From assembly GCA_003670575.1 (NCBI GenBank), contig QWRD01000006.1, positions 1 to 64,000 of the forward strand: 64,000 nt of DNA, in the 5' to 3' direction. The position numbers and the translations under genes are program-made. Source of the DNA: Chloroflexota bacterium (GTDB lineage: Bacteria > Chloroflexota > Dehalococcoidia > UBA2979). A model generated the notes under the pieces. The model made no database searches. It was not told the DNA's origin and was given only the letters and a program-made list of their open reading frames with translations. This document shows positions 10,051-39,851 of this stretch, in pieces; position 1 is the stretch's first letter; the number at the start of each line of letters is the position of its first letter.

Positions 10051-10102
10051 TGGCTCCCTGTCCCTGTCGTCCAGACTTCCGTGCTGTCTCGAACTATCCG
10101 AC

Positions 10103-10807
10103 TTACTCGACGTCGTACGCGGCGGTCACGCCCAGCAGCACGCGGTCGGCGAGCCCGCCGATCTCCGCGCGCGCTCGGGCCGCTTCCTCGGCGGACATGC
10201 TGGTGCGCTCGGCGAGTTGCTTCGCTGTCTCGTCCAACGAGCGACGGAAGAACGTGAAGGCCTCCACCGCGCGCAACAACGGCGTGCCGCGCTGGTGGAG
10301 GATCTGGCCGTAGCGCTGGCCGATCTCGTCGACCTCGGCTTCCACCAGCGCGCGCCGACCACCGCGCCGCGAGATGTACTCGCCGACGAGCTCCACTAGG
10401 CGCCGGCCGAGGGGACGCAACGCGTCGCGCTCGTCCTCCTCCATGCTGGGGTACCACGAGGCCGCGCCTTTGCCGCCGGACTGCAACTGCCGGCGGATGC
10501 GAGAGACCGCTGCCGTTTCCAGCGCCGTCTCCGATCGAGGCCCGCCTGGCCCGCCTTCGGTCATCGCCACCAGGTCGCCCTCGGCGAACCGCCGGTGCCC
10601 GCCCGGCGTGCGAAAGCAGCGGATCTCGCCGGAGTCTGCCCAGCGCCGAACTGTCGATTCGTTGACGCCGAGGATCTCGCAGGCGCGGCCGAGGTTCACC
10701 CAACGGGTGACGGCAGGAGTCTGCGAGGCGTTGGTCTGGCGTGCTGGCAAAATCTCACCAAAGTTCTGATCAGATTCGAGCGATCTGCAGTTTACATCCT
10801 CGGCCAT
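10103..10807 (-). CDS. MerR/excisionase-type HTH regulator with a C-terminal helical sensor-like domain
   Basis: Probable transcription regulator of 234 residues. Residues about 28-75 form a winged helix of the MerR/excisionase kind (NLGRACEILGVNESTVRRWADSG, then FRTPGGHRRF). After a Gly-rich linker, residues about 105-230 are an all-helical domain rich in Arg and Glu (LVELVGEYISRRGG; VEAFTFFRRSLDET) that resembles RsbRD-type or globin-like helical sensor domains; this resemblance is by eye only. The start is ATG 10807; a longer frame to 11014 would overlap hemQ. Its place inside the haem operon suggests control by haem, oxygen or a tetrapyrrole intermediate, which is inference. Confidence 0.75.
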   Translation of the reverse strand: MAEDVNCRSLESDQNFGEILPARQTNASQTPAVTRWVNLGRACEILGVNESTVRRWADSGEIRCFRTPGGHRRFAEGDLVAMTEGGPGGPRSETALETAAVSRIRRQLQSGGKGAASWYPSMEEDERDALRPLGRRLVELVGEYISRRGGRRALVEAEVDEIGQRYGQILHQRGTPLLRAVEAFTFFRRSLDETAKQLAERTSMSAEEAARARAEIGGLADRVLLGVTAAYDVE

Positions 10808-10844
10808 GGAAGTGGCGACGCCGCTCCGTGGAGGCCTCGTCGAC

Positions 10845-11633
10845 TCAGTCCCGTGGCAGCAGCCCGCAATAGGCTGCCAGTGCCTGCGGTGCCATCCGAC
10901 GGCAGGTGAACATCGGCGTGTCCCGCTCGGTGTACGACGACGACGCGGAGTCGCGCAGGTCACGCACCAGCGCCAGGAACTCGCCGGGCGAGTCTCCCTC
11001 GAACGCGACGACAAACTCCTGGTCGTCGAGACCGTAGGAGTACGTCGTGTTGATTCGGATGCGGTGGTACGCGTGCCCGATCGCGATGTGCTCGTTCATG
11101 ATCTCCTGCCGGCGATCCTGCGGGAGCTTGTACCACTCGCGAGTCTTCACCATCGGGTACACGAAGAGATACGCCGCGCCGCTGTCATCGGAGCGCAGCC
11201 GCTCCCGACCGGGGTCGCCGGGTGCTGAGGTGTGCAGCGGGTTGGCGTACATGGACCGCATGGTCATCGACAAGAAGGAGTGCGGCTGCTCCAGCGCTGA
11301 CGCCAGCGGGGAGGCGAGCAGTGCGGACTGCCAGTCCATGATCTCCTGCAGATCGTCGGCGACCTGCCAGACCATGAAATCGGTATCGCGCCGCGTGCCC
11401 ACCGTGGTGTAGGTGCGCGTCAACATGCGTTGGGAGGAGCGTTCCAGCAGCTCTGCGAGGCAGCGCGCGGCTTCGGCACGTGCCGCAGCGTCACCGGCAC
11501 GCACCGCGTCGCGCACGCGAAAGAACGTGAACTTCACGAACTGTTTGCCGTGCGGAGACGTCGGCTCCGGCAGGTTCGCCGGGCGGGCGTATGGCGAATG
11601 CGGTGTGCTGGCGCTTCCGGCGTCGGATGTCAC
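10845..11633 (-). CDS. hemQ: Coprohaem decarboxylase (HemQ, chlorite dismutase family)
   Basis: Converts Fe-coproporphyrin III to haem b with peroxide. From GTG 11633 the product has 262 residues. It carries the HemQ signature YPMVKTREWYKLP with the catalytic Tyr, the proximal His in the segment EHIAIGHAYHRI, then NTTYSYGLDDQEFVVAFE and the ending YTERDTPMFTC. There is no distal Arg pattern of true chlorite dismutase that I can recognise, so decarboxylation is the likely role. The start overlaps the ahbAB stop as GTGA (11630-11633). HemQ normally ends the coproporphyrin-dependent pathway; here it sits beside sirohaem-branch genes. Confidence 0.93.
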   Translation of the reverse strand: MTSDAGSASTPHSPYARPANLPEPTSPHGKQFVKFTFFRVRDAVRAGDAAARAEAARCLAELLERSSQRMLTRTYTTVGTRRDTDFMVWQVADDLQEIMDWQSALLASPLASALEQPHSFLSMTMRSMYANPLHTSAPGDPGRERLRSDDSGAAYLFVYPMVKTREWYKLPQDRRQEIMNEHIAIGHAYHRIRINTTYSYGLDDQEFVVAFEGDSPGEFLALVRDLRDSASSSYTERDTPMFTCRRMAPQALAAYCGLLPRD

Positions 11634-25703: not shown

Positions 25704-25968
25704 GGTTCACCGTGACCTGTTGAACGCGGGCGGGGTATCCCCTGCGCGCGCGTGCGCCGCTCGCCCGCCAGCCTCGACGCTCCGGCTCGCCTCGATGACT
25801 CCGCCACCTCGAGGGTGGCCGGATCGCGGCAAGCCGGGGTCGGATCACCTTAGAAACGGCCCACGCGGTGTGTCAAACCACGCGCCGATGGCCGCCCGCG
25901 CCACCTGAACCATCGAAGACACGACGCGCATCGTGCGTGCAGCGGCTCGCCCGCTCTATGCTGGCTGC
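25704..25968. other. Divergent intergenic region
   Basis: About 265 bases between the propeller gene (-) and the site-2 protease gene (+). Apart from the TATGCT box at 25957-25962 I see no feature I can name and no coding stretch with the local codon pattern. Confidence 0.4.
25957..25962 (+). promoter_or_regulatory. -10-like box TATGCT close to the protease start
   Basis: TATGCT ends 6 nt before ATG 25969, with no ribosome site in between. This matches the arrangement seen before lepB and suggests a leaderless transcript. Confidence 0.45.
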
Positions 25969-26712
25969 ATGCTATTGAGATATCTCTCGGTGATCCGCGA
26001 CGCGCCCGAGGCGTTCCTCATCCTGGTGGCGGCGTTCGCTGTGTCGATGCTCGTGGGGCTGGCGTTCCACGAGTTCTCGCATGCGTTCGTCGCGACGCGG
26101 CTCGGCGACAACACGCCTCGACGATACGGGCGGCTCACGCTGGACCCGCGCAAGCACCTCGATCTGACAGGCTCGCTGCTGATCCTGTTCGCGGGATTCG
26201 GCTGGGCGAAGCCCACACCGGTCAACCCCTTCAATACCGAGAATCCTCGACGGAGCATGGTTTTGATCGCCGGGGCGGGGCCCGTCTCCAACCTTGCCAT
26301 CGCGCTGCTGGCGGGCATGCCGATTCGCCTAGGGCTGGTGCCGTTCTACCACCCCTTCATTCACCCGGCGCTGGCGAGCTCGGCGGTGCAGGTGTGGACG
26401 GAGTCGTTCGCGTCGCTGGCCGGACTGTTCCTCGGGACCATCGTCCTGCTCAACGTCATGTTGGCGGTGTTCAACCTGCTGCCGATCGCGCCCCTCGATG
26501 GGTTCCGGGTGGTCGCGGGGCTGCTCCCGCCGGAACTCGGTGTGCCGTTCGCGCGCACGGAGGCGTGGGGACCCGGCATCCTGTTGCTGCTGTTTATGTT
26601 CCCGTTCTTCTCCGGGGGGATGTTCAGCCCACTCTCGATCGTGATGGGGCCAGTGATCCGCTTCTTCTTGATCCTCATCGCGGGCGATGCGCGCGGGCTG
26701 CTGTTTGATTAG
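25969..26712 (+). CDS. Site-2 protease family (M50) membrane metalloprotease
   Basis: Intramembrane zinc protease of 247 residues. HEFSH at residues 34-38 is the HExxH zinc site; the third ligand is the Asp in NLLPIAPLDGFR at about 180. Five or six hydrophobic spans are visible, including the first span at 15-35 and the last near the C-terminus. It has no PDZ domain, so it belongs to the short group related to SpoIVFB/Rip-like proteins. ATG 25969 is preferred to 25933 because of the promoter spacing and the hydrophobic N-terminus. Confidence 0.9.
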   Translation: MLLRYLSVIRDAPEAFLILVAAFAVSMLVGLAFHEFSHAFVATRLGDNTPRRYGRLTLDPRKHLDLTGSLLILFAGFGWAKPTPVNPFNTENPRRSMVLIAGAGPVSNLAIALLAGMPIRLGLVPFYHPFIHPALASSAVQVWTESFASLAGLFLGTIVLLNVMLAVFNLLPIAPLDGFRVVAGLLPPELGVPFARTEAWGPGILLLLFMFPFFSGGMFSPLSIVMGPVIRFFLILIAGDARGLLFD

Positions 26713-26772
26713 GCCGCGCGCGATGCTCATCGCTCCCCGATGCGCCGCCCCTGATCGAGTCGACCGCTCATC

Positions 26773-27267
26773 GTGAAGACCGCGATCTATCGCGCGCGCC
26801 AGTTCTTCCGTGGCTTTCGCACCACGCTCGCCCCGCACGAGATTGGGCTGGTGCATGCCCGCCTGAGCGAGGCGGAACGCGAGCTGTTCGACGCCATGCA
26901 GGCGGGCGATCAGCGCCACAGCGTCGACCTCGCGTTGTGGCTCGGCCCGGAGGCCAGCGACACCTTGCTCACGGCCGCGTTATTGCACGATGTCGGGAAG
27001 GGGCCGGTGCATGTCTGGGATCGCATCGTCTTCGTGCTGCTCGGCGGCCTCGGGGATCGCGCGCGTGGGTGGTTGGAGGCGGAGCGTGGCGGGCGCTTCC
27101 GTCGCGCCCTCTGGCGATTGGAGCATCACGCGGCGCTTGGCGCGGCGTTGCTGCGCGCCGCTGGCAGCTCGCCACGCGTGGTAGAGCTCGTCGAGCGCCA
27201 CACAGCCGCCCCCCCACACGACGACGAGGAGCTGTCACGCCTCATTGCCGCAGACGAAGCGACATAA
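26773..27267 (+). CDS. HD-domain protein
   Basis: A 164-residue single-domain protein with the HD metal-dependent phosphohydrolase pattern: H49 (QRHSVDLA), H72-D73 (ALLHDVGKG) and a later His pair (LEHHAALGA), with a final Asp-rich helix. Substrate unknown. It lies 60 nt after the site-2 protease gene and about 120 nt before tyrA, so it may be co-transcribed with the former. Confidence 0.82.
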   Translation: MKTAIYRARQFFRGFRTTLAPHEIGLVHARLSEAERELFDAMQAGDQRHSVDLALWLGPEASDTLLTAALLHDVGKGPVHVWDRIVFVLLGGLGDRARGWLEAERGGRFRRALWRLEHHAALGAALLRAAGSSPRVVELVERHTAAPPHDDEELSRLIAADEAT

Positions 27268-27389
27268 CGCCACGACGCTGACTGGCGCGGGCTGGCACTA
27301 GGTGCTCGCAGCGCGGCATCGGATGGGTACACTGGGTGTGTGCACCTGCGCGGGCGCCGCGCCCATGGACTGGGGTTGGGGGAGACAGC

Positions 27390-28424
27390 ATGCCTCGGGT
27401 CACCATTATTGGCACCGGCCTGATTGGCGCTTCGATCGGCCTCGGGATGAAGAAGCATGGCCCACGCGACCTGGAAGTCGTTGGGCATGAGCGCAGCCTG
27501 GACCACGCGAAGCAGGCGCTGCGCACGCACGCCGTGGACCGCATGGAGCGCGATCTCGCCGCGGCTGTCGAGGGTGCCGCACTCGTGATCATCGCGACCC
27601 CGATCCTGGCGATGCGCGAGGTACTGGAAGTCATCGCTCCCGCGCTGGAAGCCGGCGCGGTGGTCACCGACACCGGCTCCACCAAGGCAGACATCGTCAA
27701 CTGGGGGCGAACCCTGCTCCCGGACACCACCGCGTTCGTCGGGGGCCATCCGATGGCCGGGAAGACGGATTCCGGGCCGCTGGCTGCGGACGCGGCGCTC
27801 TTCCAGGACGCGCGCTGGATCGTCGTACCTGACCCACTGGTTCCGCCCGACGCTGTCGATGTGGTCGTCGGGCTAGCGCAGATGCTGGGGGCCAAGCCCG
27901 TGTTCATGGACGCGCACGAGCATGACGCATATGCCGCGGCCATCTCGCACCTGCCGCTGGTCGCCGCCACAGGGCTCTTTCGCCTCGCGCGGTCCTCGGA
28001 GGCGTGGCCGGAGCTGTCGGCGCTGGCGTCCAGCGGGTTTCGCGACACCACACGCCTCACGGCCACCGAGCCGGTGATGGCGCATGACATAGCGATCACC
28101 AATCGCGCGCAGATCGTCCACTGGATTGAGCGGTACCGCGAGGAGTTGCGCCTCCTGCAGCTGGAGATCGCGGACACGGAGCACGAGGCGGAGCTGTTCC
28201 GTACGATCAGTGAATCGAACATGCAGTACGCGGCGTACCGCGCTGGCGCCGTCGGTCGCCGCGAAGTTGATGACGACCAGTTCGACACCATCGGGGACAT
28301 CTCGATGATGGATCTACTCATGGGCGGCCAGCTCGCCGAGCGCGCCCGAGAGCTCACGCGGCGCTCCGAGGAGCGCATCGCCGAGTCTGAGCGCACCGCC
28401 CGCGCCGCCGGGCGCGATGGCTGA
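27390..28424 (+). CDS. tyrA: Prephenate dehydrogenase
   Basis: Oxidatively decarboxylates prephenate to 4-hydroxyphenylpyruvate for tyrosine synthesis. The 344-residue protein starts MPRVTIIGTGLIGASIG, a Rossmann NAD motif; later TDTGSTK and GGHPMAGK are substrate motifs of the family. ATG 27390 follows a GGGGGAGA ribosome site. There is no fused chorismate mutase or ACT domain that I can see. A TACACT box near 27327 may be its promoter. The 3' end overlaps gmk by 8 nt. Confidence 0.92.
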   Translation: MPRVTIIGTGLIGASIGLGMKKHGPRDLEVVGHERSLDHAKQALRTHAVDRMERDLAAAVEGAALVIIATPILAMREVLEVIAPALEAGAVVTDTGSTKADIVNWGRTLLPDTTAFVGGHPMAGKTDSGPLAADAALFQDARWIVVPDPLVPPDAVDVVVGLAQMLGAKPVFMDAHEHDAYAAAISHLPLVAATGLFRLARSSEAWPELSALASSGFRDTTRLTATEPVMAHDIAITNRAQIVHWIERYREELRLLQLEIADTEHEAELFRTISESNMQYAAYRAGAVGRREVDDDQFDTIGDISMMDLLMGGQLAERARELTRRSEERIAESERTARAAGRDG

Positions 28425-29076
28425 GCCGGTGTCGCCTCAACCCGCGGGCACGGGGGCCGACGGCGCGGACTCGCCGGTGATCATCCTTGTGTCGGGGCCG
28501 TCCGGCGTTGGCAAGGACTCGGTGATCGCGCGTGTCCGGAAGCGGGCGACGTTCGCCGTGCCAGTGACGATGACCACGCGCCCACCGCGACCGGGCGAGG
28601 TCGAGGGGCGCGACTACTATTTCGTCAGTCGCGAGCAGTTCCTTGCGCACCTGGAGGCGGACGAACTGCTTGAGCACGCCGAGGTCTACGGCAATCTCTA
28701 CGGCGTGCCTCGGTCGGAATGGCCACGCGTGCTGGCGACAGGGCAGGATGTCATCGTGCGAGTGGACGTGCAGGGCTGCCGCACGCTGCGGCCGCTACTC
28801 CCGGGTGCCATCACCGTATTCATGGTGCCAGCGCCGCGTGAGGCCAGCGTCGATGAGCAACTGCGAGCGCTCGAGGCCTTCCTGCGGCACCGCAACGAGC
28901 GCGACGAAGTGATCGCGCAACGGCTCGCGGCCGCACCAGCGGAGCTGGCGGCGATCGCCGAGTTCGACCACGTGGTGCTCAACGTCTTCGGCGGCCTCGA
29001 CGCCGCTGCGACGGACGTGCTGTCGATCGTCGAGGCCGAGCGCGCCCGTCGCGGCCGCGGCACATCGGCCAGCTAG
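28417..29076 (+). CDS. gmk: Guanylate kinase
   Basis: Phosphorylates GMP to GDP. P-loop GPSGVGKDS at residues 27-35, GMP-binding segments TTRPPRPGE and GRDYYFVS, and the lid and AEVYGNLYG motif are present. The residue after the P-loop Lys is Asp rather than the usual Ser/Thr (GKDS, with Ser shifted by one), a small departure. The 219-residue length includes a 20-residue Ala/Gly-rich N-terminal extension. Confidence 0.9.
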   Translation: MAEPVSPQPAGTGADGADSPVIILVSGPSGVGKDSVIARVRKRATFAVPVTMTTRPPRPGEVEGRDYYFVSREQFLAHLEADELLEHAEVYGNLYGVPRSEWPRVLATGQDVIVRVDVQGCRTLRPLLPGAITVFMVPAPREASVDEQLRALEAFLRHRNERDEVIAQRLAAAPAELAAIAEFDHVVLNVFGGLDAAATDVLSIVEAERARRGRGTSAS

Positions 29077-29349: not shown

Positions 29350-29720
29350 ATACAGACGTCGATCGGGAGTAGTACGCCGTGTTGCGGGGCAGGTCCGCCG
29401 GTTCACCGGTGGAAGCAGAGAGCCGGGGTAGGTGCGAGCCCGGCGCCCGACACTGGCGGTACGCGTAAGCGAGCCGTCCAGTCATCAACAGCAGCGGCTG
29501 AATGGACCCGGGAGTCTCGGCCCGAACGCCCCTCGCATCGTTGAGTGGTCAGTAGGCGTCGACGGTGTGGGCGCCGTTATCCAGGCCTAGGGCATCGCTG
29601 TCCGCGCCTCGTCAGAGCGCGCGTCGGTCGTGCCGCGACGAGCGTGTGCGCCCAACGGCGCGCGCGATAATGGGTGGCACCGCGAGGACCATCGCCCCAT
29701 TGGCGATGGTCCTTTTTTGA
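29350..29720 (+). promoter_or_regulatory. T-box leader (tRNA-Trp sensing) upstream of trpE
   Basis: Transcriptional T-box riboswitch. Stem I: 5' loop strand GGGAGTAGTA at 29365-29374 and 3' strand GAATGGA at 29500-29506; flanking pairs TCGGG/CCCGG and GCCG/CGGC enclose the specifier loop. The specifier triplet is TGG (29503-29505), the tryptophan codon. AGAGAGCC and GGTGCGAGCC at 29418-29440 match the distal stem I elements. The T-box GGGTGGCACCGCG is at 29672-29684; its TGGC can pair with a tRNA 3' end GCCA, which fits the G73 discriminator of tRNA-Trp. A terminator follows. Uncharged tRNA-Trp should favour read-through into trpE. Confidence 0.93.
29685..29718 (+). terminator. Rho-independent terminator of the T-box leader
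   Basis: GGACCATCGCC (29686-29696) pairs perfectly with GGCGATGGTCC (29702-29712) around a 5-nt loop, followed by TTTTTT (29713-29718). The 5' arm overlaps the T-box side, so antiterminator and terminator are mutually exclusive. Confidence 0.95.
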
Positions 29721-29772: not shown

Positions 29773-29910
29773 ATGAGACGCAACCGCACCGCACAGCGAT
29801 CCGCGCGCACCGTAGCGCTGGAACTGTGGCGCGTGGACTGGCGCGTGTGCGAGTGGCGCGACGCCATCCCTGGTCAGCGGTCCCATGATTCGATTGGTGG
29901 TGCGAGATGA
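29773..29910 (+). CDS. Trp-rich small ORF coupled to trpE (possible leader peptide)
   Basis: A 45-codon ORF between the T-box terminator and trpE. It starts at ATG 29773 with a GAAGGGA ribosome site 10 nt upstream and stops at TGA 29908-29910, which overlaps the trpE ATG (ATGA). Three Trp codons fall in ten residues (LWRVDWRVCEW, residues 18-28). The product is otherwise Arg-rich and matches no family I know. A leader-peptide role in sensing tryptophan during translation is plausible; a chance ORF is possible. An in-frame GTG at 29731 would add two adjacent Trp codons but lacks a clear ribosome site. Confidence 0.5.
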   Translation: MRRNRTAQRSARTVALELWRVDWRVCEWRDAIPGQRSHDSIGGAR

Positions 29911-31373
29911 CTGAACTGTTTCCAACTCTCGATGCGGTGCGTGGCATGGTGAGCCGCGGCAACATCGTCCCCATCTATCGCGAGGTCCGAGCCGACCTGG
30001 AGACGCCGGTTTCCGCGTTCCTGAAGGTCGCGCGCGGCGAGTACTCGTTCCTACTGGAGTCCGTGGAGGGCGGGGAGCGCGTCGGGCGCTACTCGTTCAT
30101 CGGCACGGAGCCCTATCGCGTGACCGCGAGCGCCCACGCCGACGGCGATCCGCTGATCGAGGTGGAGGCGGAGCTCGGCCGGATGCGCTCCGTGGACGTG
30201 CCCGGGCTGCCGAGGTTCCACGGGGGTGCCGTCGGCTACATCGGCTACGAGGTGGTGCGCCACTTTGAGCCACGCGTGCCCGCACCGGACCGCGACGTGC
30301 TTGGCGTGCCGGAGTCGTGGCTGATGTTCACCGATGCGTTGTTGGTCTTCGACCACCTGCAGCACAAGATCAAAGTCGTGGCGCACGTGAGGCTGGATGG
30401 CGACATCGACGCCGCGTATGCGCAGGCCGCCGCGAAGATCGAGCAGCTGGTGGAGCGCCTCGCACAGCCGCTGGCGGCGTTGCCATACCAGCCGTGCGAT
30501 GGTCCCATCGGTCAGCCGGTGCGCTCCAACTGGGATCGGGAGGATTTCCTGATCGCGGTGGAGCGGACGAAGGACTACATCCGCGCCGGAGACATCGTGC
30601 AGGCCGTGCTCTCGCAGCGCTTCAGCCGTGCGACCGGCGCGCACCCGTTCGAGGTGTACCGCTCACTGCGGCAGATCAACCCCTCGCCGTACATGTACTA
30701 CCTCCAGTTCGGCGATGCCTACATCGTGGGTGCGTCGCCGGAACTGCTGGTGAAGGTGGAAGAGGGCAAGGTCGAGGTGCATCCGATCGCCGGCACCCGC
30801 CCGCGTGGCGCCACGCCCGAGGAGGACGCGCGGCTCGCCGATGAGTTGGCGCACGACCCGAAGGAACTGGCGGAGCACGTCATGCTGCTGGACCTGGGCC
30901 GTAACGACGTCGGCAAAGTCTCGGAGCCCGGCAGCGTGGAGGTGACGCAGCGTTTCGACATTGAGTCGTATTCGCACGTGATTCACCTCGTGAGCCACGT
31001 GCAGGGTCGGCTGCGTGCGGGGCTCAGTCCGTATGAGGCGCTGCGATCGGCGTTCCCCGCGGGTACGGTGTCCGGCGCGCCGAAGATCCGCGCGATGGAG
31101 ATCGTGGCGGAACTGGAGCCGGACCAGCGCGGCCCGTACGCAGGCGCGGTCGGCTTCTTCGACCTCTCGGGAAACGTGGAGACGTGCATCACGATTCGCA
31201 CGCTGGTGATGCGCCACGGTCAGGCGCACGTGCAGGCCGGCGCGGGCATCGTCTACGACTCTGAGCCGGTGAAGGAATTCGAGGAGACCCAACACAAGGC
31301 GCGCGCATTGCTCGCGGCGATCGATGCTGCGGAGGCGGCGGCGACGGGCGCCGTCGGCAGCCTGGGCTACTGA
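29907..31373 (+). CDS. trpE: Anthranilate synthase component I
   Basis: Makes anthranilate from chorismate with ammonia supplied by TrpG. The 488-residue protein has the N-terminal tryptophan-feedback domain with LLESVEGGERVGRYSFIG (the LLES element) and the chorismate-binding domain with PSPYMYYL, ASPELLV, IAGTRPRG, ELxEHxMLLDLGRND and GTVSGAPKIRA. Both halves are intact, so feedback inhibition by Trp is expected. First structural gene of the trp operon. Confidence 0.97.
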   Translation: MTELFPTLDAVRGMVSRGNIVPIYREVRADLETPVSAFLKVARGEYSFLLESVEGGERVGRYSFIGTEPYRVTASAHADGDPLIEVEAELGRMRSVDVPGLPRFHGGAVGYIGYEVVRHFEPRVPAPDRDVLGVPESWLMFTDALLVFDHLQHKIKVVAHVRLDGDIDAAYAQAAAKIEQLVERLAQPLAALPYQPCDGPIGQPVRSNWDREDFLIAVERTKDYIRAGDIVQAVLSQRFSRATGAHPFEVYRSLRQINPSPYMYYLQFGDAYIVGASPELLVKVEEGKVEVHPIAGTRPRGATPEEDARLADELAHDPKELAEHVMLLDLGRNDVGKVSEPGSVEVTQRFDIESYSHVIHLVSHVQGRLRAGLSPYEALRSAFPAGTVSGAPKIRAMEIVAELEPDQRGPYAGAVGFFDLSGNVETCITIRTLVMRHGQAHVQAGAGIVYDSEPVKEFEETQHKARALLAAIDAAEAAATGAVGSLGY

Positions 31374-31388
31374 GATGGTGAGCCACCC

Positions 31389-32264
31389 GTGACCACCATT
31401 CCGCACCCCACCATCGTGGCGGCCGGTGTTCGACTCGCGCGGGAGGACGGCAGCGTGCTGTTGGTCCGCCACCGCACGGGGGTTGCGGCCGGGCGCTGGT
31501 GCGTGCCGATCATCGATGTCCCGGAGGAGGAGGTGATGGAGTCCGCCGTCACCCGGCTGCTGCGGGACGTGCTGCGCCTGGACGCGACACGCATCGAGTT
31601 CGCCGAGACGCTGCTGATCCCCGCGCCTGACGGCGATGTCGTCGTGAACGTCTTCGATGCCTTCGGCTGGACCGGCGAGCCACGCTATAGCGATCGCGAC
31701 TTCGATGACGCCGGCTGGGTGGAGCCTGCCGCGCTCTCGACGATCGATGCGCTGCCGGAGCTGGCTGCATGGCTCGGCGGCGCAGCGGAAGCGGAGAGCG
31801 ACCCGCACGACGCGCTGGTGCTCGACCTGCTGGCGGCGCGCGAGGAACTGCTCGCGGCCTTCGAGGCGATCGACGGCCGCAGCCAGGAGCGCGCGCTGGA
31901 CGGCGCATGGGCCCCCGTCGACGTGCTCCATCACGTCGCTGCCTACGAGGGCTACGCGATGGATGAGACGCTGCGCCTGATTGAGCAGCCGGGTCACCGT
32001 TGGCGTCCGTTCAACGAGGCGCAGGCGGAGGCCGACCGGCGGCTACGTGCTCGCCCGTCCGCCGCCGAGGTGCACGACCGGATGGTGCGTGGCCAGACGG
32101 AGACCATGCGCCTGCTCGGCAACTTGATGCCGGAGCAGTTCCGGGCCTTTGGTACGCACGCGGAGCGCGGGTTCATGACCGCCCGTGACTGCATCGAGGA
32201 GATCGCGCGCCATGACCGTGAACACACCGCACAACTGCGCGGGATGCGCCCCGCAGCGTTCTGA
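31389..32264 (+). CDS. Nudix-like and DinB-like fusion protein
   Basis: Residues about 8-135 resemble a Nudix fold (VRLAREDGSVLLVRHRTGVAAGRWCVP; FDDAGWVEPAAL), but the Nudix box REUXEEXGU is not conserved: the helix reads VMESAVTRLLRDVLRL, lacking the EE pair, so hydrolase activity is doubtful. Residues about 145-288 match the DinB/YfiT four-helix fold with candidate metal His residues in DVLHHVAAYEG and ARHDREHTAQL. The gene starts at GTG 31389, 15 nt after trpE, and ends 22 nt before trpG. No tryptophan-related role is known for such a fusion. Confidence 0.75.
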   Translation: MTTIPHPTIVAAGVRLAREDGSVLLVRHRTGVAAGRWCVPIIDVPEEEVMESAVTRLLRDVLRLDATRIEFAETLLIPAPDGDVVVNVFDAFGWTGEPRYSDRDFDDAGWVEPAALSTIDALPELAAWLGGAAEAESDPHDALVLDLLAAREELLAAFEAIDGRSQERALDGAWAPVDVLHHVAAYEGYAMDETLRLIEQPGHRWRPFNEAQAEADRRLRARPSAAEVHDRMVRGQTETMRLLGNLMPEQFRAFGTHAERGFMTARDCIEEIARHDREHTAQLRGMRPAAF

Positions 32265-32286: not shown

Positions 32287-32880
32287 ATGCTGCTACTCAT
32301 CGATAATTACGACTCGTTCACATACAACCTCTACCAGTACCTCGCCGAGCTTGGCGCGGACGTGGAGGTGTTTCGCAACGACCAGGTGAGCGTGCAGGAC
32401 TGCCTGGCGATGGCACCGGAGCGTATCGTGATCTCGCCTGGTCCCTGCTCGCCGGACGAGGCGGGCATCTCGATCGAATTGATCAAGGCGGCGGCCGGGA
32501 AGGTTCCGCTGCTCGGCGTGTGCCTGGGTCACCAGTCGATCGGTCAGGCGTTCGGTGGCACCGTGACGTTCGCGGGCGAGATCATGCATGGCAAGACCTC
32601 GATGGTGACGCATGACGGCCGAGGGGTGTTCGCGGGCCTTCCGAACCCATTCGAGGCGATTCGGTATCATTCACTGGCGATTGCGCCGGACTCCGTGCCG
32701 GACGTGCTGGAAGTCTCCGCACGGTCGGAGAGCGGCGTCATCATGGGAGTTCGCCACCGCGAGTACGCCATTGAGGGCGTGCAGTTTCACCCGGAGTCGA
32801 TCATGACGCTCGTCGGCCACGACCTGCTGCGCAACTTCCTCGCCATGCCGAACCGGGCGCCCGCCGGAGCCGCACGATGA
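32287..32880 (+). CDS. trpG: Anthranilate synthase component II (glutamine amidotransferase)
   Basis: Class I glutamine amidotransferase that feeds ammonia to TrpE. The 197-residue protein has [13 protein letters not shown] at the N-terminus, the nucleophile Cys in [10 protein letters not shown] and the catalytic His/Glu in [11 protein letters not shown]. It may also serve 4-amino-4-deoxychorismate synthase. GAGGAG precedes ATG 32287; the stop overlaps the trpD start as ATGA. Confidence 0.96.
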
Positions 32881-33938
32881 CCAACGCGCCAACGCCGCCC
32901 GCGCCAATGGCTGGCACCGCGATGCGAGCAGCGCTCGTCGCGCTCGTCGATGATCACCGCGACCTCACGGAGGCGGAGGCCGCCGCCTGTATGGAAGAGA
33001 TCATGGGTGACGGCGCGACGGCCGCGCAGTTCGGCGCGCTGATGGTCGCGCTGCGACTCAAGGGCGAGACCGTCGACGAGATCACCGGCATGGCAAAGGT
33101 GATGCGCGCGCACGCGCTGCGCGTCGAGGTTCCCTCGCGGCCGCTGCTCGACACGTGCGGCACCGGCGGCGACGGGCTGCGCACGTTCAATGCCTCCACT
33201 GCCGCGGCGTTTGCCGTCGCGGCGGCGGGCGGGAAGGTCGCCAAACACGGCAACCGCGCCGCCACCTCGCAGTCCGGCTCGGCCGACGTGCTGGAGGCGC
33301 TGGGCGCGGACATCACCCTCACGCCACAGCAAGTCGTGAACTGCATCGAGCGGACCGGCGTCGGGTTCATGTTCGCGCAGGCGTTCCATCCCGCGATGAA
33401 GTTTGCGGCGCCGCTGCGACGTGAACTCGGGCTGCGCACCGTGTTCAACATCCTTGGTCCGCTGACCAACCCGGCGGATGCGAACTGCCAGGTGCTCGGC
33501 GTGCCGAATGCGGCGATCGGCGAGAAACTCGCGCACGTGCTCGCACGGCTCGGGATGCGGCACGCGCTGGTGGTGAGCGGCGACGAGGGGCTGGACGAGA
33601 TCTCGGTCTCAGGCCCGACGACCGCCTTCGAGGTGCGCGGCGAGACCGTCACGCAGCGTCGCATCACCCCGGATGAACTCGGCCTGGCCACTTATCCGCT
33701 GGCCGAGGTGGCCGGCGGCACCCCTCAGGAGAACGCTGTGACTATGCGCAAGATCTTCACCGGCGACGGCGCTCCTGCGGTGCGGGACTTCGTGGCCGCG
33801 AACGCGGGCGCCGGGTTGTACGTGCTGGGGCTTGCCTCGACGATTCGGCAAGGCGTCGAGCAGGCGCGTACGGTGATGGACAGCGGCGATGCGGCCGCGC
33901 GACTGGGGGCGTTTGTGGAGGCGAGCCGTCGTGGTTGA
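32877..33938 (+). CDS. trpD: Anthranilate phosphoribosyltransferase
   Basis: Joins anthranilate to phosphoribosyl pyrophosphate. The 353-residue protein shows the PRPP-binding DTCGTGGDG, the NAST-like segment ([25 protein letters not shown]) and [18 protein letters not shown]. Length and motifs are normal. Confidence 0.97.
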
Positions 33939-34854
33939 ACAGGCGCGGCCCGACCCAATGCCCGCGCACATCGCCATCGATGGCGCACGCGAGACCGGGA
34001 CGGTGCTCGACCGCATCGTCGCCGACCGCCGGCTGCGCCTCGCCGAGGATCGCGCGGCGACACCGGAGTCGGCATTCGCGGGGCTGGAGGCTTCACTCCC
34101 GGGCGCGCGCGTGGACTTCGTCGCGCGGTTGCGCCAAGGGCGCCTCGCCGCTCCGGCTGGCGCGCGGCTGCGGCTGATTGCGGAGATCAAGCGCGCGTCG
34201 CCGTCCAAGGGACTGTTCGATGAGCATCTGGATGCCGAGGCACAGGCGCTGCGCTATGCGGCGGCCGGAGCGTCCGCAATCTCGGTGCTCACCGAGCCAA
34301 CGTCGTTTCGGGGCTCGGTCGCCGATCTGCGCGCCGCGCGCTGCGCGTTCCGGGAAGACCCGGACCGTCCGGCGGTGCTGCGCAAGGACTTCATCTTCGA
34401 CCCGTATCAGGTGCTGGAGGCGCGTGCGAACGGCGCTGATGCGCTGCTCCTGATCGTGATGATGCTCACGCCCGACGCGTTGCGTGATCTCATCGCGCTG
34501 ACGCGCGCAGAGGGCATGGAGCCGTTGGTCGAGGTGCACGATGAGGCGGAGGTGGCGGCTGCGCTGGCCGCCGGTGCGCGGGTGATCGGCGTGAACAACC
34601 GCGACCTCCGCACGTTCGCGGAAGACCTCGGCACGACGGAGCGACTGGCGCCGCTGATCACGCCGCACGCGACGCTTGTTGCGGAATCGGCGATCAAGTT
34701 CGCGGTAGACGCCCGGCGCATGGCCGATGCTGGCGCGAGCGCGGTGCTGGTCGGCGAGGCGCTGATGTTGAGCGAGACGATCGCCGCGAAGGCGCACGAG
34801 TTGCTGCTGCTGAGAGCGGATGGAGCCCCCTCGCCGCTGGCGGGGGAAGGCTAG
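33931..34854 (+). CDS. trpC: Indole-3-glycerol phosphate synthase
   Basis: Cyclises carboxyphenylaminodeoxyribulose phosphate to indole-3-glycerol phosphate. GTG 33931, overlapping the trpD stop by 8 nt with GGAGG nine nt upstream, gives 307 residues; ATG 33958 is an alternative. Motifs: AEIKRASPSKG, LRKDFIFDPYQ, GVNNRDLRTF, VAESAIK. The catalytic Lys and Glu are present. The last residues (PSPLAGEG) are encoded by a palindromic element and probably form an added tail. Confidence 0.96.
   Translation: MVEQARPDPMPAHIAIDGARETGTVLDRIVADRRLRLAEDRAATPESAFAGLEASLPGARVDFVARLRQGRLAAPAGARLRLIAEIKRASPSKGLFDEHLDAEAQALRYAAAGASAISVLTEPTSFRGSVADLRAARCAFREDPDRPAVLRKDFIFDPYQVLEARANGADALLLIVMMLTPDALRDLIALTRAEGMEPLVEVHDEAEVAAALAAGARVIGVNNRDLRTFAEDLGTTERLAPLITPHATLVAESAIKFAVDARRMADAGASAVLVGEALMLSETIAAKAHELLLLRADGAPSPLAGEG
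34826..34846 (+). repeat. REP-like palindrome at the 3' end of trpC
   Basis: CCCCCTCGCC (34826-34835) and GGCGGGGG (34839-34846) form an 8-pair stem with one T-G wobble and a 3-nt loop. Translated, it gives PSPLAGEG, a sequence known from dispersed palindromic repeats in several GC-rich bacteria. It lies across the trpC end, just before trpF. Confidence 0.45.
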
Positions 34855-34872: not shown

Positions 34873-35616
34873 ATGACCTTCGTGAAGATATGCGGCAACC
34901 GCACTCCCGCCGATGTACTGGCTGCCGCCGAGGCGGGCGCGGACTTCGTCGGCATGGTGTTCGCGAAATCGTCGCGCCAAGTCGATCCGGACGAGGCATA
35001 CGCGATGGTACGCGCCCTCGGCGGGCCGCTCTCGGGCCACGAGTTCCTGATGCCGCCTCCGTCCCAGCCGCACGTCCGCGAGGTGGTGAGCGAGTGGTTC
35101 CGCCACGGCTCGCGCGTGCTGGAGACGTACCTGGAGGCGAAGCGCCCGCTGACCGTCGGCATCTTCGCCGACCAGCCGATCGAGGAAGTGAACGAGATTG
35201 CGGAGGAGGTCGGACTGGACCTCGTCCAACTGTCGGGCGACGAGACGTGGGAGGACTGCTTGCTGGTGACGAAGCAGGTGATCCAGGTGATGCACGTGTC
35301 ACCGCTCGACTCGCCCTCGGACCCGATGACGCTCGTGCAGCCGGGGTTCGCGCTGGCGCTAATGATGGACACCGCGCATGGGCCGTATCGCGGCGGCACC
35401 GGCCACATCTTCGATTGGGAGGTCGCTCGCGAGGTTGCCTCGCGCGTGCCGATGCTACTTGCGGGCGGACTGAACCCGGAGAACGTCGGCGAGGCGATTC
35501 GCACCGTGCACCCGTGGGCCGTTGATGTCTCAAGCGGCACGGAAACTGATGGACGCAAAGACTACGACCGCGTGCGCGCCTTCATCCGCGCCGTGCGAGA
35601 GGCGGATGCACGATGA
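34873..35616 (+). CDS. trpF: Phosphoribosylanthranilate isomerase
   Basis: Amadori isomerase between TrpD and TrpC in the pathway. The catalytic Cys is in [11 protein letters not shown] (family KICG) and the catalytic Asp in [31 protein letters not shown] is the phosphate site. At 247 residues it is about 40 longer than usual, with an extra segment near residues 50-90 ([22 protein letters not shown]). Stop and trpB start overlap as ATGA. Confidence 0.93.
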
Positions 35617-36833
35617 CCACCACCCTCCCTCCGATGCCTGACGAGCGTGGGCACTTCGGCGAGTTCGGCGGCAAGTACGTCCCCGAGACGCTGATGCCGG
35701 CGCTGACGGAGCTGGAAGCCGCGTACGACGCGGCCATGCTCGACCCGACGTTCCGCGGGGAGCTCGACCACCTGCTGCGCACGTACGTCGGTCGGCCGAC
35801 GCCGCTGACCTACGCCGCACGACTCTCCGCACACCTCGCCGAGGCGAATGGCGCGCGGGGCGGCCCGAAGATCTACCTGAAGCGTGAGGACCTTGCGCAC
35901 ACCGGCGCGCACAAGATCAACGCCGCGCTCGCGCAGGCGCTGCTCGCCCGCCGCATGGGCAAGCAACGCATCGTCGCGGAGACCGGCGCCGGGCAACACG
36001 GTGTCGCCACCGCAACCGCGTGCGCGCTGCTGGGGCTCCAGTGCATCGTCTACATGGGCTCCGAGGATGTCCGCCGCCAGTCGCTGAACGTCTTCCGCAT
36101 GAAGCTACTCGGGGCCGAGGTGCGTCCCGTCGACGCCGGGTCACGCACGCTGAAGGACGCAATCAACGAGGCGATCCGCGACTGGGTCACCAACGTCCGC
36201 GACACCTATTACTTGCTTGGCTCCGTCGTGGGGCCGCACCCCTATCCCGCGATGGTGCGCGAGTTCCAGTCCGTGATCGGCATCGAGGCGCGCGAGCAGG
36301 TGCTTGCTGCCGAGGGGCGACTTCCCACGGTCGCGATCGCGTGTGTCGGCGGTGGCTCGAACGCGATGGGGCTGTTCTCGGCGTTCCTCGACGATCCGGT
36401 GCGGCTTGTGGGGGTCGAGGCGGCGGGCGAGGGCCTCGAGGCGCGACACGCCGCGACGCTGAGCAAGGGCCGTCCGGGCGTACTGCACGGCGCGCGCTCG
36501 TATCTGCTCCAGGACGCCGATGGCCAGCTGATCGAGGCGCACTCGATCTCGGCGGGGCTCGACTACCCGGGCGTCGGCCCAGAGCACTCGTGGTTGAAGA
36601 CCAGCGAGCGCGCCGAGTATGTCGCGATCACGGACGTGGAGGCGTTGGCGGGGTTCCAGATGCTGTGCGGCACCGAGGGCATTATCCCGGCCCTCGAGTC
36701 CTCGCATGCCGTCGCATACCTGCCGAAGCTTGTCGCGGGTCTCGGCGGCAACGACCTGGTGGTGCTGAACCTCAGTGGGCGTGGCGACAAGGACATGGGC
36801 ACCGTCGCCGCGGCGCTCGGAGTCACGCTGTAG
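35613..36833 (+). CDS. trpB: Tryptophan synthase beta chain
   Basis: PLP enzyme that joins indole with serine. The 406-residue protein has the PLP Lys101 in [29 protein letters not shown] and the phosphate cup GGGSNAMG. This is the standard TrpB1 form that partners TrpA. trpA is not adjacent here but lies about 2.2 kb downstream, beyond rmuC and a CPBP protease. Confidence 0.97.
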
Positions 36834-36886: not shown

Positions 36887-38101
36887 CTACGTGCGCTGGG
36901 TGTCCTCGTCGTCGCCGGGCAGTTCCTCGTCCCCAAGTTCGAGCAGCGCCTCGTCGGCGGCGGGCAGCACTTCGGCGGGCAGACCGGCGTCGACCCGCAG
37001 GCGTTCGACGCGTTCGATGTGTCGGTCGAGCACCCGCGTGCGCGGCCCTGAGAGCGTGTCGAAGGCCTTCTGCGTCGTCGCCAGCCCGCGCCCCACTCGC
37101 CCGACGGCGTCCTTGTATATCGTCCACTGCTGGTTGAAGCCGCCGAGCACCGTCAATATCTCGTCGGTCCGCTGGGTGAGGTGGAAGTTGTCGATGGCCT
37201 GCCGGATGACGGAGAGCACGGCGAACAGCGTGAACGGCGAGCACATCACCACCCGCTGGCGAAGTGCCCCGTCCAGCAGCTCTGGGTCGCTCTCGTGGAT
37301 GAAGCCATAGACCTGCTCGTTGGGGACAAACAGCAACACGTAGTCCAGCGTTCCGCCGGCCGGGTCGATGTACTCGCGGTTCGTCACCTCGCGGATGCGG
37401 GCCCTCGCGTCGCGCAGGAAGTCGTGCACCGCGACGGCCCGGTCCGGCTCCGACGCGGCCTCGAGGTACCGGAGGTACGCAGCGAGTGGGAACTTCACGT
37501 CCATGTGCAGGACGCGCGTCTGCGGGAGCAGGAACGTAAAGTCCGGTCGACCGCTGCCGGCATCGAGTTGCGTGTTCTTCCGGTATTGCACGCCTTCCAC
37601 GAAGCCAGCGACGCGGAGAATGTCCTCCGCCATGCGCTCCCCCCACTGGCCGCGCGCCTGGCCGGAGACCAGCACTTCCGTGAGCTTCCCGGTCGCCGCG
37701 CCCAGCGCTTCCATGGTCTTGCGGCTCTCCGCGGTGACGGCGGCCAGGCTGGCGACGCCCTCGCCTCGGGTCTTGTCCGTTGACTCCACGTAGTCGCGGA
37801 GCTTGGTGATCGCGGTGCCGACGGTCTCCAGTCCCTTCTCGATCTCGTCTGCGCGCGCCTTCAGTCGTTCCTCGCCTCGGGCGGTCTCGGTGCGTAGGCG
37901 TGTCTCGGCGAGCGCGAGGAACTGCTCGGAGTTCTGCTGCAGCGCCTGCGACTGCGCCTCCGCCACTTGGGTACGCACGATCACGCCGACGAGTTGTGCG
38001 AATTGGTCGTCGTTGAGGCGACCGGTGCGACGCCACGCGAACCACGCCGCACCCAGGGCGACGACCGCGACGGCCAGTACGAGCAATGAGGTGGTGTCCA
38101 C
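36887..38101 (-). CDS. rmuC: DNA recombination protein RmuC homologue
   Basis: The 404-residue protein has an N-terminal membrane helix (residues 4-22, SLLVLAVAVVALGAAWFAW), a coiled coil (about 30-110, rich in Gln, Glu and Ala) and the RmuC nuclease-like core (GQWGERMAEDIL; RPDFTFLLP; HMDVKFPL; YVLLFVPNEQVY). RmuC proteins limit rearrangements of inverted repeats. GTG 38101 has AGGAG seven nt upstream; longer frames upstream lack similarity. It is convergent with trpB (53-nt gap) and divergent from the CPBP gene. Confidence 0.92.
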   Translation of the reverse strand: MDTTSLLVLAVAVVALGAAWFAWRRTGRLNDDQFAQLVGVIVRTQVAEAQSQALQQNSEQFLALAETRLRTETARGEERLKARADEIEKGLETVGTAITKLRDYVESTDKTRGEGVASLAAVTAESRKTMEALGAATGKLTEVLVSGQARGQWGERMAEDILRVAGFVEGVQYRKNTQLDAGSGRPDFTFLLPQTRVLHMDVKFPLAAYLRYLEAASEPDRAVAVHDFLRDARARIREVTNREYIDPAGGTLDYVLLFVPNEQVYGFIHESDPELLDGALRQRVVMCSPFTLFAVLSVIRQAIDNFHLTQRTDEILTVLGGFNQQWTIYKDAVGRVGRGLATTQKAFDTLSGPRTRVLDRHIERVERLRVDAGLPAEVLPAADEALLELGDEELPGDDEDTQRT

Positions 38102-38216
38102 GGCAGATCTCCTGCGCAGAGAGTACACGCGGAACCATCGATGCTGATGTCGAGGTGGTGAGTAGGAGGCGCCATCGGGCGCGCCGGTGTGCGCAACGCG
38201 GCGCGGGCGCGGCTGA

Positions 38217-38222
38217 TACCCT
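38217..38222 (+). promoter_or_regulatory. -10-like box TACCCT close to the CPBP gene start
   Basis: TACCCT ends 6 nt before ATG 38229 without a ribosome site between them. It matches the pattern before trpA, lepB and the site-2 protease gene. Confidence 0.4.
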
Positions 38223-38228
38223 GCTCGC

Positions 38229-38954
38229 ATGTTCGCCGATCGCCCCGAAGTTCTTGCTCCACCGTCGGCGCCTGTGCTCGGCCGCATCTGGCCGGTGCGT
38301 GACCTCGTCGTGGGCGTGGGGGCGCTGGCGGCGATTACGCTGCTGCTGATCGCCGCCCTCGTGCTGCTCCGCGTGCGAGGTGCAGCCGTGGGCATGGGCG
38401 CCTCCGTGCTGCTGGAGTTGGCGCTGGGCGGCATCGTGCTGCTGCTTGCCGCCCGCCGAGGCGTTTCGCTGCGCGAACTCGGGTTCGTGCGCCCAACCAC
38501 GTGGCGGCTGGCGGTGCCGGCGTGGCTGGGCGCGTACGGCATCCTGGTCGGCTACGTGCTGCTGCTCCGCCTCGCTGAGCGCGCGGGCTTCGATGTCTCG
38601 ATGTTCACGCGTGGTAACCCGGTACCACTGAGCGGCGACGAGGGTGTCGCGCTGGTCGCGGTGATGGCCGTCACCGTGGTGCTGCTGGCGCCCGTCTGCG
38701 AGGAGCTGTTCTTTCGCGCGCTGTTGTATCGAGGGCTGCGCGGGTTCTGGTCGATGCCGCTCGCGCTGGCGGTGAGTGGGTCCGCGTTCGGCGCGTTCCA
38801 CCTCAACCTGAGTGTTGTCCTCCCATACAGCCTGATCGGTATGCTGTTCGCGTGGTTGATGGAGGAGTCGCGCTCGCTCTGGCCGCCGATCGTCGTGCAC
38901 GCGCTGGTGAACGGGATCTCGTTCGCGGTGAGCATCGCCGCGCTCACGAATTGA
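38229..38954 (+). CDS. CPBP-family intramembrane metalloprotease
   Basis: Polytopic membrane protein of 241 residues (about seven hydrophobic spans) with the CPBP/Abi motifs EELFFRALLYRGL (EExxxR), FGAFHLNL (FxxxH) and HALVNG. The family includes CAAX-type prenyl proteases and bacteriocin-immunity proteins; substrate unknown. It lies alone between rmuC and trpA. Confidence 0.9.
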   Translation: MFADRPEVLAPPSAPVLGRIWPVRDLVVGVGALAAITLLLIAALVLLRVRGAAVGMGASVLLELALGGIVLLLAARRGVSLRELGFVRPTTWRLAVPAWLGAYGILVGYVLLLRLAERAGFDVSMFTRGNPVPLSGDEGVALVAVMAVTVVLLAPVCEELFFRALLYRGLRGFWSMPLALAVSGSAFGAFHLNLSVVLPYSLIGMLFAWLMEESRSLWPPIVVHALVNGISFAVSIAALTN

Positions 38955-39018
38955 CCATCGAATTGATCATCGAAGCCGACGCGCGGCGCGGAAGTGGCGG
39001 TCCAGTCCGTTGCGCTGG

Positions 39019-39024
39019 TACCCT
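39019..39024 (+). promoter_or_regulatory. -10-like box TACCCT close to the trpA start
   Basis: TACCCT ends 8 nt before ATG 39033 and no Shine-Dalgarno sequence is clear. It suggests that trpA has its own promoter, outside T-box control, and a nearly leaderless mRNA. Confidence 0.4.
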
Positions 39025-39032
39025 CCGAAGCC

Positions 39033-39851
39033 ATGAGTGATCGCCTCGCCGAGATGTTTGCACGCACGCACGCGCTGGGACGCCCGGCGCTGATTCCCTT
39101 CGTGCCCGGCGGCTGGCCGGAACCCGACGCGACCCTCCAGATCGCGCTCGCCGCGGTGGCGGGTGGCGCGGACGCGCTGGAGATCGGTATGCCGTTCTCC
39201 GACCCGCTGGCGGACGGCGCGACCAACCAACTGGCCTACCAGCAGGCGCTCGCGCAGGGCGTGTCGGTGCCGAAGGTGCTGGCGGCGGTTCGGGAGATTC
39301 GAGGCGCGGGCGTTTCGATCCCGCTGCTGCTGATGGGCTACTGCAACCCGCTGCTCGCCTACGGGATGGACCGCTTTGTCCACGATGCCGCGGAGGCAGG
39401 CGTCGACGGTCTGATCATCGTCGACCTGCCGCCGGAAGAGGCGGCGGAGTTGGAAGTGCCCGCGCGGGCAGCCGGACTCCACCTCGTATACCTGCTGGCA
39501 CCCACGTCCACCCTCGACCGCATCGCGCTGGTCGCGGCTCACGCGAGCGGGTTCATCTACTGCGTTAGTGTTGCTGGCGTCACCGGATCGCGTACGGCCC
39601 TCTCGGACGAGGTGCCTGCGTTCCTGGCGCGGGTGCGTCAGGAGACGGATCTGCCACTGGCGATCGGCTTCGGCATCTCGACGCCAGAGCAGGTCGAGGT
39701 CATGGGCCGGGTCGCCGATGCGGTCGTGGTGGGGAGTGCGTTCGTGCAGGCGGTCGAGGCGGCCCCGCTCGAGCGTCGCGCGGAGACGGTGCGCGCGTTC
39801 GTCGAAGGGCTGGCTGGACGTGATGGACGCGCTGCGGCCACTGCCGACTGA
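39033..39851 (+). CDS. trpA: Tryptophan synthase alpha chain
   Basis: Cleaves indole-3-glycerol phosphate to indole, which passes to TrpB. From ATG 39033 (MSDRLAEMFA) the product is 272 residues. The catalytic Glu is in ALEIGMPFSDPLADG and the catalytic Asp in IIVDLPPEE; YCVSVAGVTGSR and GFGISTPEQV are the phosphate-binding loops. It is separated from the main trp operon by two unrelated genes and is followed by a strong hairpin. Confidence 0.96.
   Translation: MSDRLAEMFARTHALGRPALIPFVPGGWPEPDATLQIALAAVAGGADALEIGMPFSDPLADGATNQLAYQQALAQGVSVPKVLAAVREIRGAGVSIPLLLMGYCNPLLAYGMDRFVHDAAEAGVDGLIIVDLPPEEAAELEVPARAAGLHLVYLLAPTSTLDRIALVAAHASGFIYCVSVAGVTGSRTALSDEVPAFLARVRQETDLPLAIGFGISTPEQVEVMGRVADAVVVGSAFVQAVEAAPLERRAETVRAFVEGLAGRDGRAAATAD

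Follow-up and report, generated by a model that had tools for sequence, protein, structure and literature searches.

A pseudo-Nudix–DinB fusion protein encoded between trpE and trpG, a candidate accessory protein of anthranilate synthase in part of the Dehalococcoidia

The window analysed here, a 64,000-nucleotide stretch of contig QWRD01000006.1 from a Chloroflexota bacterium of the class Dehalococcoidia, carries a complete gene between trpE and trpG, which encode the two subunits of anthranilate synthase. Its product, hereafter X, joins a Nudix domain that has lost its catalytic residues to a DinB/YfiT four-helix bundle, and full-length X is present in 37 of 44 sampled genomes of the window’s family (f1), spanning 15 genera. 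Because X sits between the two subunits of the enzyme, and the genes lie close together, we tentatively regard it as an accessory protein of the anthranilate-synthase step, composed of a pseudo-Nudix binding module and an exchangeable effector, a reading to which we give somewhat less than an even chance.

Few gene sets have been studied as thoroughly as the trp operon, in which anthranilate synthase catalyses the regulated entry step. Our search of the open-access literature, covering titles and the starts of abstracts, listed no paper describing X. Gene insertions in trp operons are mentioned in PMC2395257, the accessible part of which describes no conserved Nudix fusion between trpE and trpG. 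The domains themselves are of known kinds; what is new is their arrangement and the occurrence of different partners in one slot.

The open reading frame and the Pfam assignments agree with the first-pass annotation in placing a Nudix–DinB fusion gene between trpE and trpG with short gaps (Table 1). X begins 15 nt after the trpE stop codon, without overlap in the window, and ends 22 nt before the trpG start. Pfam assigns residues 9–121 to NUDIX (23.2 bits against a cut-off of 21.1, E = 7.5e-5) and residues 148–283 to DinB_2 (33.6 bits against 24.8, E = 6.3e-8). We also modelled X using AlphaFold2 with a 31-sequence alignment (mean pLDDT 92.4); both domains are well predicted in the model, and a pTM of 0.58 leaves their mutual arrangement loose. 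In structure comparisons, model residues 4–138 match the MutT Nudix protein 3grn_B (Z = 17.5) and residues 136–291 match Bacillus subtilis YfiT, 1rxq_D (Z = 16.9).

Table 1. Features of the trp locus in the window (positions of the whole stretch).
Feature	Position	Strand	Evidence
T-box-like leader upstream of trpE	29350..29702	+	Rfam RF00230 sub-threshold; core; hairpin by eye
trpE, anthranilate synthase component I, last residues GSLGY	29907..31373	+	TIGR00564, 546 bits (cut-off 517.7); Pfam; ORF
X, Nudix–DinB fusion protein, 291 aa	31389–32264	+	GTG start; ORF, Pfam, genome searches, AlphaFold2, structure matches
Pseudo-Nudix domain of X, residues 1–136, box residues lost	31389..31796	+	Pfam NUDIX, 3grn_B match, box residues
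DinB/YfiT four-helix bundle of X, residues 137–291, H182/H275/H279 present	31797..32261	+	Pfam DinB_2, 1rxq_D match, histidines
trpG, glutamine amidotransferase subunit	32287..32880	+	TIGR00566, 258.5 bits (cut-off 121.05); Pfam GATase
trpD	32877..33938	+	Pfam
trpC (mechanical ORF; true start probably further in)	33889..34854	+	ORF, Pfam
trpF	34873..35616	+	Pfam
trpB	35613..36833	+	PALP fold (Pfam) and trp-operon position

X was searched for in 60 genomes, that of the window included, and a 31-row X profile was run against 393 genomes of the class. The order trpE–X–trpG, whose conservation in relatives the first-pass annotation had proposed to check, is conserved in all 37 f1 carriers, which comprise the window, 31 loci mapped from DNA (among them L052, whose trpE is cut by the contig start) and five loci placed by coordinates (G317, G322, G343, G360 and G364). 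X is linked to trp genes in every one of them. None of the 37 yields a second X match at E ≤ 1e-15, and the check for the gene at unrelated loci in close relatives, set beforehand as the point on which the proposal could fail, found none. A chance reading frame or an assembly artefact is ruled out by the identical gene and place in 37 genomes. We also rejected a spread of the fusion through the phylum: 390 phylum genomes, the class included, gave 14 matches at E ≤ 1e-15, and the nine of these outside the class cover the DinB part only.

Two of the seven f1 genomes without X (G006 and G020) belong to genus g5, whose streamlined genomes measure 1.1–1.2 Mb, and have trpE directly before trpG. This genus has lost X and kept the trp operon; X is therefore not needed there, which counts against an accessory role. 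The other five contain no assembled trpE–trpG junction: contigs of G017 and G375 end just past or inside trpE, trpE is missing from G029, where a contig begins with trpG, and G327 and G371 show neither gene at the thresholds used, with more distant TrpE-like matches only.

Ten pairwise comparisons gave dN/dS values for X of 0.077–0.373, all below 0.4, against 0.017–0.108 for TrpE and 0.040–0.192 for TrpG in the same pairs; L052 enters twice, dS of the window–L031 pair (about 1) approaches saturation, and the TrpE comparisons of L051, L052 and L056 cover just 219 codons. X exceeds both TrpE and TrpG in 10 of 10 pairs. It is under purifying selection and evolves faster than TrpE and the neighbouring enzymes. 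An intact gene at an unchanged position in 37 of 44 genomes of the family, with dN/dS in this range, makes X more than a chance occurrence.

The catalytic Nudix box follows the motif G-x5-E-x7-R-E-U-x-E-E-x-G-U, with catalytic glutamates. In the window, R56-L57-L58-R59-D60-V61 stands in place of the expected R-E-x-x-E-E, so that L57, D60 and V61 occupy the columns equivalent to E53, E56 and E57. The glutamate triad is complete at the aligned columns in none of 32 X sequences; the first and the last glutamate are never present and the middle one is found in 12. The two box glycines that follow the conserved proline are absent in all 32, and a free search for RExxEE matched two sequences, both outside the box columns. 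By comparison, we examined 11 Nudix proteins encoded elsewhere than in the slot (ten in f1 genomes, one in f2), which were found by their resemblance to the Nudix part of X, and RExxEE is kept in every one. RExxEE occurs in one of 24 other slot Nudix or Nudix-like sequences, an unfused gene of family f68.

The missing box residues reported in the first-pass annotation are thus real, and its suggestion that this part does not hydrolyse is borne out as far as box residues can judge: a working hydrolase is very unlikely, and we rejected an active Nudix enzyme on the ground that the box glutamates are never all present. X shares fold and sequence profile with MutT-like Nudix hydrolases (PF00293; 3grn, 4dyw and BdRppH 3ees), but differs in lacking two of three catalytic glutamates and the GG pair (32 of 32), in its fused second domain and in its fixed place in a trp operon. 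The box helix is under some constraint, being no less conserved than the domain around it (0.633 vs 0.560 for the whole Nudix domain), which counts against our reading. F71, N87, F89, A108 and W110 are invariant in the 31 rows of alignment A1, from which L061 was left out, and align with F65, N83, F85, A105 and W107, which are invariant in a 13-row alignment of Nudix–methyltransferase proteins. In Nudix regulators such as NrtR, the fold binds a ligand instead of hydrolysing it. X differs from NrtR in that Pfam found no DNA-binding domain in it, and the partner domains of X-type proteins are enzyme-like.

YfiT is the bacillithiol transferase BstA of the STL/DinB superfamily, with which X shares the four-helix bundle. 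According to the accessible part of PMC5815605, H67, H160 and H164 of BstA alone are fully conserved among eight active transferases, a three-histidine pattern that H182, H275 and H279 of X resemble; the equivalence is by motif, not by superposition. The triad is complete in 25 of 32 X sequences. All three histidines are missing in four (L044 and L059–L061) and two are missing in L042; within the window’s own genus, L031 lacks two and L032 one, leaving one complete triad among three members. E187 and Q212 are kept in all 32. The first-pass description of a DinB-like metal-binding bundle therefore has to be amended: the window protein has all three histidines, but the triad is incomplete in seven sequences that include both other members of the genus. 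X departs from YfiT/BstA in this respect, as well as in the fusion of its bundle behind a Nudix domain, and no thiol is known for it.

These histidines bear on a different reading, in which X acts catalytically, either in damage control or in detoxification, on a reactive by-product formed at the chorismate and anthranilate steps. The DinB part would then be a metal-dependent thiol transferase, a methyltransferase would do a similar job in other families, and the Nudix part would be a relic or a substrate-binding lid. Such an enzyme would explain why an H/HxxxH triad is kept in most X sequences with the spacing of BstA H160/H164 (PMC5815605, accessible part), but fits poorly with a triad that is partial in seven, wholly gone in four of them, and reduced by one or two histidines in two of the three members of the window’s genus. 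The L031 protein has lost the Nudix glutamates along with two histidines of the triad, and its gene is still open and kept, which favours binding over catalysis. We consider damage control unlikely, at about the same level as the passenger role discussed below.

In 21 of 31 relatives the start of X lies between −1 and +2 nt relative to the stop codon of trpE, starts having been chosen by script as the earliest from 40 nt before that stop. This near stop–start overlap suggests translational coupling of trpE and X; the 15-nt spacing in the window speaks against it. The gene order and the near overlap would also suit a pure adaptor that couples TrpE and TrpG, in assembly or in ammonia transfer, and is neither enzyme nor sensor; the L031 protein, devoid of Nudix glutamates and two histidines, would be compatible with such a role. 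In other bacteria, however, X is not required for the joint action of TrpE and TrpG, genus g5 and other families possess both genes without it, and the effector domain varies by family and often keeps its catalytic motif. We judge an adaptor highly improbable.

The gene run in the window is trpE-X-trpG-trpD-trpC-trpF-trpB. A trpA gene lies further on at 38994–39851 (+), separated from trpB by two ORFs, a mechanical RmuC-like ORF on the opposite strand (36887–38542) and a 241-aa membrane-protein-like ORF (38229–38954), both named by eye. Upstream of the operon, positions 25933–29076 encode an M50-like protease and an HD-domain-like protein (by eye), tyrA and gmk (Pfam); tyrA precedes trpE in 18 of 31 family stretches examined, which are unequal in reach.

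The leader of trpE resembles a T-box although its match to RF00230 (29.7 bits, E = 1.3e-4) falls below the gathering score of 93, and no gathering-level Rfam match was found in the window stretch or in nine relatives. A T-box core, GGGTGGCACCGCG, lies at 29672–29684, followed by a terminator-like hairpin at about 29686–29712 (by eye) and a T run to 29718. TGG at 29503–29505 sits where the specifier codon is expected and would point to tRNA-Trp. Allowing one mismatch, we find the core GGGTGGNACCGCG in the 1400 nt 5′ of trpE at 24 of 31 loci with upstream sequence, the window included and L052 ignored, and upstream of trpE in neither g5 genome. For Dehalococcoides, T-boxes associated with trpE and with a trpB-like gene were already described in a 2008 survey (PMC2494555), the accessible part of which does not mention X.

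The slot between trpE and trpG is also occupied in other families. Outside f1, all 15 Nudix-type matches to the X profile (E ≤ 1e-15, class sample) adjoin trpE and/or trpG, genome G223 having only trpG on its contig. Fourteen of these 15 slot proteins combine the Nudix domain with a class I SAM methyltransferase (seven in f16, six in f66 and one in f50). Pfam, run on five slot proteins from outside f1, found both domains in four and NUDIX alone in the fifth, from the second f50 genome (G143), where the Nudix domain is a separate gene in the slot. A profile of 13 Nudix–methyltransferase sequences recovered the 14 and a fifteenth in f20 (G274), which follows the matched end of trpE at a distance of about 93 nt and is placed by the profile and its position after trpE only. 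The slot of G296 holds a stand-alone methyltransferase close to the fused one. A search of PDB sequences with the methyltransferase profile returned a wide mix of methyltransferases, with a putative one first. The SAM-binding motif of the methyltransferase keeps three glycines, G223, G225 and G227 in L104 numbering, in every one of the 13 rows of alignment A2, a point in favour of damage control.

Six DinB-only matches to the X profile were found in five genomes of f66, f23 and f68. At five of these loci, that of G134 being left out, no trp operon lies around the gene and no common neighbour was seen by eye; the DinB-only stretch at L121 includes a weak TrpG-like match with 25% identity. The DinB half is not the constant part of the slot proteins, as box-less Nudix domains of the same clade have other partners in the slots of other families.

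Other slot contents were read at 20 loci picked by gap size among the matches listed, so that frequencies cannot be drawn from them. Two f25 genomes carry a box-less Nudix-like N-terminus joined to a P-loop kinase-like domain (Pfam matches the kinase part only), and three f33 genomes and L148 carry one joined to a CMD domain (Pfam, run on one, matches CMD only); the Nudix-like call in f25, f33 and L148 rests on alignment, and for L148 also on an X-profile match at E = 1.2e-6. In f68 the intact, unfused Nudix gene lies beside a VOC gene. Further slots hold SDR, VOC or CMD genes, an ABC transporter, HflK/C-like genes or a HicBA-like pair. Ten slot proteins were run against Pfam; the names HicBA, ABC, HflK/C, GNAT, MDR and HAD, VOC at L215 and L175, and SDR except at L211 were given by eye. 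In twelve class rows, partly picked for adjacency, trpE and trpG are no more than 25 nt apart. Across the class, then, slot contents vary, and among f1 carriers they are constant.

Several of these loci have features of their own. The HicB/HicA-like toxin–antitoxin pair occurs between trpE and trpG in one f59 genome (L205, 3041–3507, reverse complement; by eye). Slots of the f33 type (L208, L210, L216 and L148) combine the Nudix-like–CMD fusion with a HAD-like phosphatase (by eye) and a conserved protein of 105–109 aa, and in L208, L210 and L148 a small Nudix-like protein precedes the other slot genes; Pfam matched neither the small Nudix-like protein nor the 109-aa protein of L208. In other families, extra genes are found elsewhere in the operon at L106, with a 328-aa gene between trpD and trpC (9984–10970), and at L104, with a 184-aa gene, P-loop-like by eye, between trpC and trpF (10695–11249).

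The variety of the slot makes a series of unrelated passenger genes a serious rival. X would then occupy a gap that tolerates insertions, and its own job would profit from T-box induction at tryptophan starvation without any direct role in tryptophan synthesis. The many kinds of gene in the trpE–trpG gap at the 20 picked loci, the loss of X from an operon that g5 kept, and a dN/dS above that of TrpE and TrpG in every pair are what a passenger would predict. The HicBA-like pair, the ABC transporter and the HflK/C-like genes have no clear link to tryptophan and count against an accessory role; the VOC, SDR and CMD genes show that slot genes of other families often encode small-molecule enzymes, which would suit damage control. 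A passenger would not be expected to keep to a single position in all 37 carriers, which span 15 genera, to belong to one Nudix clade that recurs in the same slot of other families, to approach stop–start overlap with trpE in most relatives, or to have no second full-length copy in any of 37 genomes. We judge the passenger role improbable on balance.

A tree was built from 51 Nudix domains, using 17 of the 32 X sequences and leaving out L118, for which the wrong stretch had been cut. The DinB-fused, the methyltransferase-fused and the unfused f50 domains cluster together (98/92), and Nudix proteins from outside the slot fall elsewhere, so that the clade with X takes in three other families (f16, f66 and f50). 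All slot Nudix domains together form no clade in the best tree, but the AU test does not reject their monophyly (p = 0.248). The TrpE tree comprises 70 rows; a group of 48 (93/93) takes in every one of the 30 Nudix-slot rows, mixed with Nudix-less rows. A single TrpE clade of f1 (both g5 rows included), f16, f66 and f50 is rejected (AU p = 0.032), and with it simple vertical descent. Since the TrpE tree splits the carriers, which counts against our reading, one has to invoke losses, replacements, transfers or misbinned contigs; the state ‘Nudix in slot’ must change at least four times on this tree. One genome, G250 (locus L105), labelled f66, has a slot Nudix that groups with f66 and a TrpE that groups with f16, which may reflect transfer, recombination within the operon or a misbinned contig.

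TrpE of the window ends in the C-terminal tail GSLGY (31356–31370). Tails of this type, with variants such as GSRGY counted by eye, are present in 29 of 30 Nudix-slot TrpE rows vs 16 of 40 others. The tail looks conserved as a peptide and is inseparable from shared descent. A docking peptide for X was considered and rejected: the tree offers only three to four independent pairs, the tail is kept where X is lost (GRLGY and GKLGY in the AT-rich g5 genomes), and it is absent in L051, which has X.

We return to the accessory role at the anthranilate-synthase step. A binding module with an exchangeable effector is proposed because the fold and some strand residues are kept across two fusion types, the glutamates are lost, and the place is constant where the partner differs. 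X would be made together with TrpE and TrpG from one trp message, probably under T-box control by uncharged tRNA-Trp. Its Nudix domain, no longer hydrolytic, would bind a ligand, whether a phosphoanhydride or a nucleotide (our first guess is PRPP, the substrate of TrpD), or would dock on TrpE or TrpG. The C-terminal domain would be the effector, a DinB/YfiT bundle in f1 and a SAM methyltransferase in f16, f66, f50 and f20; two more families may have a P-loop kinase-like or a CMD domain in this role. The data establish the position and conservation of X, the loss of its Nudix box, selection on the gene, and the pairing of one Nudix clade with different partners in a single slot. Co-transcription, translational coupling, T-box control, the loss of hydrolysis and the accessory role are what we infer from sequence; ligand, partner and effect are guesses.

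Put more specifically, part of the Dehalococcoidia may have a modular accessory subunit of anthranilate synthase, in which a pseudo-Nudix allosteric sensor, perhaps for PRPP, is inherited in the trpE–trpG slot and its effector is swapped from lineage to lineage, the choices being DinB, SAM methyltransferase and perhaps also P-loop kinase-like or CMD domains. This fuller version is doubtful as it stands. If true, aromatic amino-acid synthesis would be controlled or protected by X at a level that has gone unrecognised, and the slot would offer a natural case of a pseudo-enzyme module kept while its partner is swapped at one fixed operon position.
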